Assembly: GCF_026191915.1 (NCBI RefSeq)
Contig: NZ_JAIMBY010000003.1
Coordinates: 124,001 to 188,000, forward strand
Source of the DNA: Acidiphilium sp. PA
GTDB lineage: Bacteria > Pseudomonadota > Alphaproteobacteria > Acetobacterales > Acetobacteraceae
DNA length: 64,000 nucleotides
Reading direction: 5' to 3'
In this document: positions 59,320 to 61,703 of the stretch, one piece after another
Numbering within the stretch: the first letter of the stretch is position 1
Layout of the letters: every line of letters begins with the position of its first letter
Made by a program: the position numbers and the translations under genes
Notes under the pieces: generated by a model
Database searches by the model: none
Told to the model about the DNA's origin: nothing
Seen by the model: only the letters and a program-made list of their open reading frames with translations

Positions 59320-60654
59320 ATGGTACCGCGTTATTCCCGCCCCCTCATGGTGGCAATCTGGCAGGATCTGAACCGCTACCGCATCTGGTTCGAAATCGAG
59401 GCGCTGGCCGCCGAAGCCATGGTCGCCACCGGCGATGTCCCCGCCGCCGCCGCCGCCGCCATCCGCACCCGCGGCGGCGCCGCGATCGCCGCGATGTCCG
59501 AGGCCGATGTCGCCAAAATCGCCGACATCGAAGCCGTCACCCGCCACGACGTCATCGCCTTCCTCACCTGGCTCGCCGAGCCGATCGGGCCGGACAGCCG
59601 GTTCGTCCACCTCGGCATGACCAGCTCCGATGTGCTGGACACCTGCCTCGCCGTCCAGCTCACCCAGGCGACCGACCTCCTCCTCCAGGGCATCGATGCC
59701 GTCATGGCGGCGCTGAAAAAACGCGCGCTCGAACACAAACTCACACCCACCATCGGCCGTAGCCACGGCATCCACGCCGAACCCACCAGCTTCGGCCTCA
59801 AACTCGCCGGCCACTACGCCGAATTCGCCCGCAACCGCGCTCGCCTGCGCACCGCACGCACCGAAATCGCCACCTGCGCCATCTCCGGCGCCGTCGGCAC
59901 CTTCGCTCATCTCGACCCGCGCATCGAAGCCCACGTCGCCACCCATCTCGGCCTCGCGGTCGAACCGGTCTCGACCCAGATCATCCCGCGCGACCGCCAC
60001 GCCGCCTATTTCTGCACCCTCGCGGTCATCGCCTCCGGCATCGAACGCCTCGCCACCGAAATCCGCCACCTCCAGCGCTCGGAAGTCCGCGAAGCCGAAG
60101 AGTTCTTCCACCCCGGCCAGAAAGGCTCGTCGGCCATGCCGCACAAGCGCAACCCGGTCCTGTCGGAAAACCTCACCGGCCTCGCCCGCATCGTGCGCGG
60201 CTACGCACTCCCCGCCCTAGAAAACGTCACCCTCTGGCACGAGCGCGACATCAGCCACTCCTCGGTCGAACGCGTCATCGCCCCCGACGCCACCATCACA
60301 CTCGACTTCGCCCTGCATCGCCTCGCGGGCATGATCGACAAACTGACCATCTACCCCGACCGTATGACCGAAAACCTCGAAAGCCTCGGCGGCGTCGTCC
60401 ACTCCGGCGAAATTCTCCTCCTGCTCGCCCGCTCCGGCATCTCGCGCGAAGATTCCTATAAAATCATCCAGCGCAACGCCATGGCCACCTGGACCACCCT
60501 CGGCCACCCCGACGCCAAACGCTTCCGCGACCACCTCCTCGCCGACCCCGAGGTCGCCGGCCGCATCACCCCCGAAGCCATCGACACCGCCATGAACCCG
60601 AACCTGCACCTCGCCCGGATCGACACGATTTTCGAGCGGGTGTTTCAGGAATAG
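59320..60654 (+). CDS. purB: adenylosuccinate lyase
   Basis: 444 residues from the ATG at 59320, with an AAGGAG ribosome site; the longer frame runs through the repeat and is rejected. Family blocks are MTSSDVLDTCLAVQL, 'TIGRSHGIHAEPTSFGLKLA' and the signature loop GSSAMPHKRNPVLSENL. It acts twice in purine synthesis, splitting SAICAR and adenylosuccinate. It is separate from purQL, which lie 37 kb away. Full length. Confidence 0.96.
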   Translation: MVPRYSRPLMVAIWQDLNRYRIWFEIEALAAEAMVATGDVPAAAAAAIRTRGGAAIAAMSEADVAKIADIEAVTRHDVIAFLTWLAEPIGPDSRFVHLGMTSSDVLDTCLAVQLTQATDLLLQGIDAVMAALKKRALEHKLTPTIGRSHGIHAEPTSFGLKLAGHYAEFARNRARLRTARTEIATCAISGAVGTFAHLDPRIEAHVATHLGLAVEPVSTQIIPRDRHAAYFCTLAVIASGIERLATEIRHLQRSEVREAEEFFHPGQKGSSAMPHKRNPVLSENLTGLARIVRGYALPALENVTLWHERDISHSSVERVIAPDATITLDFALHRLAGMIDKLTIYPDRMTENLESLGGVVHSGEILLLLARSGISREDSYKIIQRNAMATWTTLGHPDAKRFRDHLLADPEVAGRITPEAIDTAMNPNLHLARIDTIFERVFQE

Positions 60655-60660
60655 GGAAAG

Positions 60661-60699
60661 TAAGGCTTCTTTTTTGGTAAAAAGAAGCAAAAAACTTTG
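60661..60699 (+). repeat. A/T-run palindromic repeat, half copy after purB
   Basis: GGCTTCTTTTTTGGTAAAAAGAAGC followed by AAAAAACTTTGGG. It starts 6 bp after the purB stop codon and could serve as its terminator. Confidence 0.78.
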
Positions 60700-60840
60700 G
60701 GTGATCAGGAACCGGGGTGGAGGCACAAACAGCTTCATCCGGTCGTCCGCGCATGGCGCCGCCCACCATCACCGCCACCCTCGCCGCGAGCCTGTATAAC
60801 GCCCGGCGCGGCCTCGGCAGCGAAACCAGTCTGCACCTCA

Positions 60841-60860
60841 TTGTCGTTGGTCGACGACAA
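60841..60860 (+). promoter_or_regulatory. dyad, possible activator site for the sigma-54 promoter
   Basis: TTGTCGT-TGGTCG-ACGACAA, perfect 7-bp arms with a 6-bp spacer. Its centre is about 125 bp upstream of the expected transcription start of the sigma-54 promoter, in the range where enhancer-binding proteins act. Confidence 0.5.
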
Positions 60861-60948
60861 CGGCCCCCGATACGCCCTCGAGTGTCGGAATCTTTTACAT
60901 CTAAATTATTGTACGCGCTTATGTCATTGTTTTTACTGAAATGAAAAA

Positions 60949-60966
60949 TTGGCACGTAAATTGCAA
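60949..60966 (+). promoter_or_regulatory. sigma-54 (RpoN) -24/-12 promoter
   Basis: TTGGCACG-TAAA-TTGCAA: the GG and GC dinucleotides are separated by exactly 10 bp and all consensus positions match. Transcription should start near 60975-60977, about 47 bp before the PEP-CTERM gene start. PEP-CTERM genes in other bacteria are known to be under the RpoN-dependent PrsK/PrsR system. Confidence 0.88.
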
Positions 60967-61022
60967 TATTCCGATTACGGTTGTGCATAATTGCATGCTC
61001 GATACAACGGAAGGTTAATTGA

Positions 61023-61703
61023 ATGCGAAATTTGAAAAAACTGCTTCTCCTGACGGCCACGTCAATGTCGATGGCCATCGTCAGCCTCGGCGCCGCTCAG
61101 GCCGGAACGATCGATGTGGTCTGGAACTTTGTCGGTAGCAACCGCAGCCTTGGACACACTTATACCTACGCAAGCACCCCCGTCCTCAACCCGCCGATCG
61201 ACATCACCGCGACCGGCTATACCAAGGCCGACGGCAACCGCTATAAGTTCCAGGATCTCTACGGCAAAGACCAGGGGTCGGGCGAACAAGGCGTCGGCCT
61301 GACCAACGATCCCTCCGGTGATCACGAAATCACGCCCGGCAGCTTCATCCAGCTAGACCTGATCAATCTGGCCAGTTCCTCACAGATCACCAGCATGGCG
61401 CTCAGCTTCCAGGCCGGCAGCACGAGCGGCAACGACGAATGGGCGGTCTACGGCTCCAACGTCGCCGGAAAACTGAGCACGCACCAACTCGCCACCGGCA
61501 CCAACGACAACCTGATCGGCAATCTCGCCGGCAACATCATCGGCACCTACCGCTATCTCGACGTCACCGCCCTCAGCGGCAACATCCTGCTGGCCGAAGT
61601 GGACAACAAGGTGAACGTCCCGGAACCCGGCTCGCTCGCCTTGCTTGGCACAGGCCTGATCGGTCTCGGCGTGGTGCTCCGCCGCCGCCGCAAAACCGCC
61701 TGA
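61023..61703 (+). CDS. PEP-CTERM sorting domain-containing protein
   Basis: A 226-residue exported protein with a signal peptide (MRNLKKLLLLTATSMSMAIV, cleaved after AQA near residue 27). The C-terminal sorting signal is NVPEPGSLALLGTGLIGLG, then a helix and RRRRK. Exosortase should process it at the membrane for surface or biofilm matrix delivery. The body is low in Cys and rich in Gly/Ser/Thr/Asn, with no recognised domain. It is preceded by a sigma-54 promoter. No exosortase gene is present in the window. Confidence 0.9.
   Translation: MRNLKKLLLLTATSMSMAIVSLGAAQAGTIDVVWNFVGSNRSLGHTYTYASTPVLNPPIDITATGYTKADGNRYKFQDLYGKDQGSGEQGVGLTNDPSGDHEITPGSFIQLDLINLASSSQITSMALSFQAGSTSGNDEWAVYGSNVAGKLSTHQLATGTNDNLIGNLAGNIIGTYRYLDVTALSGNILLAEVDNKVNVPEPGSLALLGTGLIGLGVVLRRRRKTA

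Follow-up and report, generated by a model that had tools for sequence, protein, structure and literature searches.

We propose that the interval 60883-60966 is a sigma-54 promoter activated by PrsR, that it serves the PEP-CTERM gene at 61023-61703, and that the genome contains about 14 promoters of this kind, this one included; we put the probability of this reading at roughly 0.93. The window, i.e., the whole stretch of DNA analysed, comprises 64 kb (contig C23, positions 124001-188000) of a genome of 4,544,981 bases in 86 contigs (G000). The DNA elements recur in this genome, they are co-located with PEP-CTERM genes, and each protein part of the system is present. Binding of PrsR to the box, dependence on RpoN, the phosphorelay, and exosortase processing would be expected from the named protein families and from other bacteria. 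The PrsR-activated sigma-54 promoter is a known type, to which the window adds one more member, and the assignment would place the gene in a defined regulon consisting mostly of surface-protein genes. The coordinates are listed in Table 1.

Table 1. Features of the predicted PrsR-dependent promoter region and the neighbouring genes (positions in the window).
Feature	Position	Strand	Basis
Proposed PrsR-binding box TGTCGGAATCTTTTACA, imperfect palindrome, Haft motif 1	60883..60899	+	Pattern scans
IHF-like element TATGTCATTGTTT, weak (differs from YAANNNNTTGATW at 2 positions)	60920..60932	+	Position shared with sibling promoters
Sigma-54 -24/-12 promoter TTGGCACGTAAATTGCAA	60949..60966	+	Sequence and pattern scans
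Candidate ribosome-binding site GAAGG, 8 nt before ATG	61010..61014	+	Sequence inspection
PEP-CTERM protein gene, 226 aa	61023..61703	+	TIGR02595 31.9 bits; PF07589 30.0 bits
Convergent gene for a second, glycine-rich PEP-CTERM protein of 322 aa	62013..62981	-	PF07589 27.2 bits

The promoter matches TGGCACG-N4-TTGC with 0 mismatches, with the -24 GG and the -12 GC at the standard spacing and a GG-to-GC distance of 10 nt, as in sigma-54 promoters. It is the single exact copy of TGGCACN5TTGCW in the window, where 0.05 are expected from base composition. The first-pass annotation was therefore right to read this site as a full -24/-12 consensus with correct spacing; its distance of 57 bp to the start codon is corrected to 56 nt, the number of positions separating 60966 from the ATG that begins at 61023. 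Looser -24/-12 matches (up to two mismatches) are not enriched in the window, with 26 found against a shuffle mean of 34.7, and they were dropped as evidence, so it is the exact match that carries the weight. The exact pattern occurs 14 times in the genome, compared with one match for the reversed-pattern control and about 3.3 expected from the base composition of the window, and PEP-CTERM genes lie directly downstream of six of the 14 sites. A consensus scan of 60650-61100 returned no sigma-70-like promoter; since only 0.4 are expected there, this absence says little.

A putative activator box, which is absent from the first-pass annotation, also lies within the window. It is 17 nt long, ends in TTTACA, and lies upstream of the -24 T at a distance of 50 nt. 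The exact motif TGTCNGNANNNTTTACA is found in the window only at this position. In the genome it has 12 exact and three one-mismatch copies (15 in total, against two for the reversed-pattern control), whereas 0.08 exact copies are expected. PEP-CTERM genes are located downstream of 14 of the 15 boxes (all 12 exact copies and two of the three one-mismatch copies), and each of these 14 boxes is followed, after 42-63 nt, by a -24/-12 site. Their spacers are 42 nt (1), 50 (3), 51 (5), 52 (2), 62 (2), and 63 (1). TIGR02595 gives 24 rows in the genome, 22 of them over the cut-off, one of which is counted only with its in-frame neighbours. Scanning upstream of the other PEP-CTERM genes, as the first-pass annotation had advised, revealed the same -24/-12 motif together with the PrsR-type box at 14 of these 22 matches; the box is absent from the remaining eight, including the second gene in the window. 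No box occurs in the 150 nt upstream of the eight exact sigma-54 sites that lie apart from PEP-CTERM genes. The ORFs following the three of these sites that were scanned encode a phenol-hydroxylase-type protein, a purine permease, and an OsmC-like protein. The fifteenth box (C45:32622-32638, minus strand, TGTCGGCACTGTTTCCA) has one mismatch and is not assigned to any PEP-CTERM gene; given its lack of PEP-CTERM and -24/-12 context, it looks like a chance match. A terminator-like hairpin at 60867-60888 (plus strand) overlaps the start of the window's box, and two terminator-like sites were found compared with 0.6 expected in shuffles.

The composite of box and promoter was searched for in a family set of 299 genomes using the pattern box-N{37-67}-TGGCN7TTGC and a reversed-pattern control. 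It was present in 48 of the 299 genomes, with 0 control matches. Longer spacers (N{68-98}) added three places in two genomes, one of which was new to the count, and shorter ones (N{6-36}) were found in none of the 299. The total is 119 places in 49 genomes, representing 118 distinct sequences. A PEP-CTERM-like ORF follows the composite in 81 of the 118 under a strict pattern and in 101 under a relaxed pattern, the latter being positive in 17 of the 118 stretches on the opposite strand used as a control. Beyond the family, the composite occurs in five of 382 non-family genomes (388 genomes searched), with spacers of 44, 60, 61, 62, and 62 nt; the strict pattern was tuned on the family, and phasing cannot be assessed from as few as five matches. 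Box, 42-63 nt, and promoter form a compact signature with few false positives (no control matches in the 299 genomes) for identifying PrsR targets, which could include cargo missed by the PEP-CTERM models.

The spacers of the family composites are not spread evenly. Among the 119, lengths of 42 nt (8), 50-53 nt (39), and 61-64 nt (66) predominate, accompanied by single spacers of 57, 59, and 60 nt, two of 72 nt, and one of 83 nt, and the lengths 43-49, 54-56, and 65-71 nt are absent. The steps between the clusters at 42, 50-53, and 61-64 nt, and the few at 72 and 83 nt, correspond to one helical turn. The best period is 10.6 nt with a vector length of 0.857, whereas none of 5000 draws from the spacer distribution after blurring by 5 nt gave a value above 0.31. 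The phasing persists in the 113 spacers left after removal of those at least 65% identical, and some composite sites are still linked by shared descent.

Across the relatives, the segment between box and promoter repeatedly contains an IHF-like element, YAANNNNTTGAWW, at a fixed position. When the spacers are aligned on the -24 T, the conserved letters T-A-A-N4-T-T-G-A-W-W-T appear at -31 to -18 and correspond to the IHF consensus WATCARNNNNTTR, as given in PMC7962754, read in reverse. With at most one mismatch, the element is found in 46 of 118 spacers, compared with a dinucleotide-shuffle mean of 6.6 and a maximum of 14; exact matches number nine of 118, compared with a mean of 0.43 and a maximum of 2. 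Flanks of the same length contain it in 0 of 118 cases upstream of the box and in three of 118 downstream of the promoter, but the flanks are less A+T-rich than the spacers, and the shuffles are therefore the fairer control. In the 37 spacers with the shorter form AAN4YTGAWW, the TGA precedes the -24 by 22-24 nt in 24 of 25 spacers of the 61-64 class and in seven of eight of the 50-53 class, and by 13 nt in all six of the 42 class. Counted from the end of the box, the TGA comes after 29 nt in the 42 class; the 50-53 class has 27-29 nt, with one case of 39, and the 61-64 class has mostly 38-40 nt. Therefore, the link from box to element and the link from element to promoter each shift by one turn.

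In the genome under study, the best IHF-like match at the 14 sites has 0 mismatches at one site (contig C45, locus L030, a strong site), one mismatch at four, and two at nine. The element lies at -30/-31 in 11 of the 14 sites, and in 12 of 14 when the place expected for the 42 class (-21) is included. The match in the window has two mismatches, a level that is also reached in 35% of shuffled spacers and is not significant by itself; its position, common to the sibling promoters, speaks for it. Six Bac_DNA_binding matches are present in the genome, with IHF and HU pooled, and the letters of the spacer element suggest that IHF may bind there.

As an alternative, the spacer element AANNNNTTGAWWWTCAANNNNTT may not be an IHF site at all, being formed instead by phased A/T tracts with intrinsic curvature or by the palindrome of another regulator. 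We regard this as a serious possibility, though clearly below an even chance. A/T steps recur about every 10 nt in the spacers, near -30, -20, and -9, and many of the elements are near-palindromic (AAN4TTGAWWWTCAAN4TT), so that another binder or plain curvature is possible. The symmetry is also seen when the IHF consensus is searched in the opposite orientation: 22 of 118 spacers match with at most one mismatch, 16 of them at -19/-18. In Geobacter sulfurreducens, expression of the PEP-CTERM gene GSU1943 rose 2.8-3.0-fold in each of the two ihf mutants, and GSU1945 was down (PMC7962754); by analogy, these data would argue against an activating role of IHF. On the other side, the letters of the element fit the IHF consensus far more often than the shuffles do (see above), and sigma-54 systems usually have IHF sites between the activator site and the promoter, as stated in the same paper.

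Taken with the phasing, the IHF reading of the spacer leads to a tentative model, whose chance we place slightly short of even. PrsR promoters would be phased three-part switches composed of a PrsR box, an IHF-bend element, and a sigma-54 promoter, whose links change only by whole helical turns, so that the PrsR hexamer would always meet the polymerase on the same face of strongly bent DNA. Genes without a PEP motif would belong to the regulon as well, namely those for response regulators and for small proteins whose C-terminus combines a membrane helix with a basic tail; among these products may be regulators acting in a cascade and exosortase-type cargo that has escaped recognition. With the helical-turn spacing and the IHF-like element, the regulation of PEP-CTERM genes by PrsR gains a testable geometry.

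The machinery required for a PrsR-activated sigma-54 promoter is encoded elsewhere in the genome. The first-pass annotation had predicted a PEP-CTERM/exosortase/PrsKR system outside the window and had treated a genome lacking rpoN as grounds for abandoning the idea. There is one RpoN match (TIGR02395, 384 bits; cut-off 277), and this protein has all three sigma-54 Pfam domains (AID, CBD, and DBD). Contig C17 carries PrsK, PrsR, PrsT, and exosortase A, all over their cut-offs. PrsR is encoded at C17:20480-21799 (TIGR02915, 635 bits; cut-off 503), and the other 29 rows of the PrsR model search score under the cut-off. The prsK, prsR, and prsT genes are adjacent: the PrsK ORF (TIGR02916, 449.5 bits; cut-off 300) overlaps the start of prsR by 4 nt, and prsT (TIGR02917, 375 bits; cut-off 312) begins within the end of prsR. 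Exosortase A (XrtA; TIGR03109, 278 bits; cut-off 208) is the sole PF09721 match in the genome and is located near exopolysaccharide genes. The TIGR03007 chain-length protein (371 bits) and the O-ligase of the exosortase A system (TIGR03097) are also over their cut-offs, and TIGR03013, TIGR03015, and TIGR03018 have matches below theirs. The earlier interpretation, a sigma-54 promoter in the window served by RpoN and a PEP-CTERM/exosortase/PrsKR system elsewhere in the genome, is supported, and the box strengthens it.

We propose the following pathway for this promoter. PrsK would sense a signal and phosphorylate PrsR, a dimer of which would bind the 17-bp palindromic box. As an AAA+ hexamer, PrsR would then remodel the closed complex of sigma-54 RNA polymerase at the -24/-12 site. 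The PEP-CTERM protein would be exported via its signal peptide, and its tail would be processed by exosortase A.

The co-occurrence of the composite with PrsR in the relatives supports this choice of activator. PrsR is over the cut-off in 80 of the 299 genomes, namely in 41 of the 49 with the composite and in 39 of the 250 without it (odds ratio 27.7, p 2.4e-20, with genomes taken as independent of phylogeny); 39 of the 80 PrsR genomes thus show no composite under the strict pattern. Eight of the 49 composite genomes (G263, G004, G103, G137, G165, G082, G045, and G050) have no PrsR match at E <= 1e-145, a limit at which split or broken genes can be missed. A split gene, a divergent PrsR, or relic sites are possible explanations for these eight.

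A sigma-54 promoter activated by another enhancer-binding protein (NtrC-, NtrX-, or AtoC-like) instead of PrsR is improbable. The genome does contain other activators of the sigma-54 type, with 10 further matches to the PrsR model at 204-369 bits, but all of these are under the cut-off, the box is confined to PEP-CTERM promoters (14 of 15), and the eight other exact sigma-54 sites lack it. The composite accompanies PrsR in the relatives as described above, and a Desulfovibrio PrsR bound PEP-CTERM promoters (PMC3333781). More improbable still is a fortuitous -24/-12 match combined with transcription of the gene from a housekeeping promoter: about three exact matches are expected by chance in a genome of this size, and some of the eight non-PEP-CTERM sites may be such, but the window promoter and the exact box, with expectations of 0.05 per window and 0.08 per genome, co-occur at a preferred spacing, the pair is repeated at 13 other PEP-CTERM genes, and the region has no sigma-70-like site (0.4 expected).

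The 226-aa protein encoded downstream has a signal-peptide-like N-terminal segment and the C-terminal sequence VPEPGSLALLGTGLIGLGVVLRRRRKTA. It has the highest score of the 24 TIGR02595 rows in the genome and exceeds the PF07589 cut-off of 20.7 bits, and the family-specific PEP-CTERM models match it only below their cut-offs. The sole relative found with back-translated patterns is one locus in Acidiphilium rubrum ATCC 35905 (99% identical), which makes the host an Acidiphilium (Acetobacteraceae) close to A. rubrum. The 82-bp composite has an identical copy in genome G096, taken to be A. rubrum. As no wider family was found, footprinting was based on paralogous promoters and those of relatives. 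The convergent 322-aa gene has a sub-cut-off match to the VPLPA-CTERM model. A sigma-54/PrsR promoter for this gene was rejected because the 500 nt upstream contain neither TTTACA nor a good -24/-12 site, and the gene falls outside the proposed PrsR regulon.

The layout closely resembles that described by Haft et al. in 2006 (PMC1569441), who report a motif 1 of 17 nt with TTTACA at its end, a sigma-54 motif 2, and PrsK, PrsR, and PrsT. There, motifs 1 and 2 precede 99 of 167 proteobacterial PEP-CTERM genes, PrsR is proposed as the binder, and an Acidiphilium cryptum genome (printed as 'Acidophilum cryptum JF-5') is listed with 14 PEP-CTERM proteins. We equate the box with motif 1 on the basis of that text (17 nt, TTTACA end, and position). 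The two systems share the box, the -24/-12 motif, the PEP-CTERM gene that follows, and PrsK, PrsR, PrsT, and exosortase in the genome. The spacer of 50 nt lies within the published range of 32-92 nt (mean 62.8), and the gap of 56 nt to the start codon compares with a published mean of 71 nt from motif 2. The one-turn spacer steps and the recurring IHF-like element are added here; the searched text of Haft et al. mentions no IHF, palindrome, or helical spacing. Neither helical-turn spacing of PrsR promoters nor PEP-CTERM together with IHF was found in the literature searched, whose coverage excludes most subscription papers, and within it we did not find these additions to the PrsR promoter layout described.

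Other experimental systems are comparable in part. The pepA gene of Aquincola tertiaricarbonis RN12 is an RpoN-dependent PEP-CTERM gene whose -24/-12 elements are TGGCAC and CTGCTT, and a sequence resembling an enhancer was noted upstream of them; primer extension and rpoN1 dependence support this promoter (PMC9850573). Aquincola is a betaproteobacterium with a mapped transcription start, whereas the start in the window is predicted, about 12 nt past the -12 GC and thus near 60976. In Desulfovibrio vulgaris, five predicted PEP-CTERM targets of the PrsR-type regulator DVUA0057 were enriched in DAP-chip, and PMC3333781 reports no validated binding motif for Desulfovibrio regulators including DVUA0057; that system is plasmid-borne and belongs to another lineage. 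As in the IHF-assisted sigma-54 promoters described in PMC7962754, the IHF-like element lies between the activator site and the promoter, with binding of IHF here being predicted. Activator and polymerase are usually separated by 100-140 bp in that account, whereas the distance from the box to the -24 is mostly 42-63 nt here.

The 17 composites missed by the relaxed PEP-CTERM pattern comprise eight whose ORFs run off the stretch or contig (L108, L129, L131, L146, L160, L168, L171, and L184; L131 ends in VPEPASM) and nine that are not PEP-CTERM-like (L093, L094, L095, L098, L107, L111, L139, L162, and L175). In L093, L094, L095, and L111, PrsR-type promoters with 42-nt spacers precede small proteins without the PEP motif, which are hydrophobic near the N-terminus and carry a membrane helix plus a basic tail at the C-terminus; that of L111 ends in SVPNVAVVTLGLTWVVLMRRRRR. 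These small proteins may be cargo with an unrecognised sorting signal. Response-regulator-like genes with Trans_reg_C and LuxR-type GerE outputs lie behind the composites at L139:461-1201 and L162:1690-2436, which would place other regulators under PrsR.
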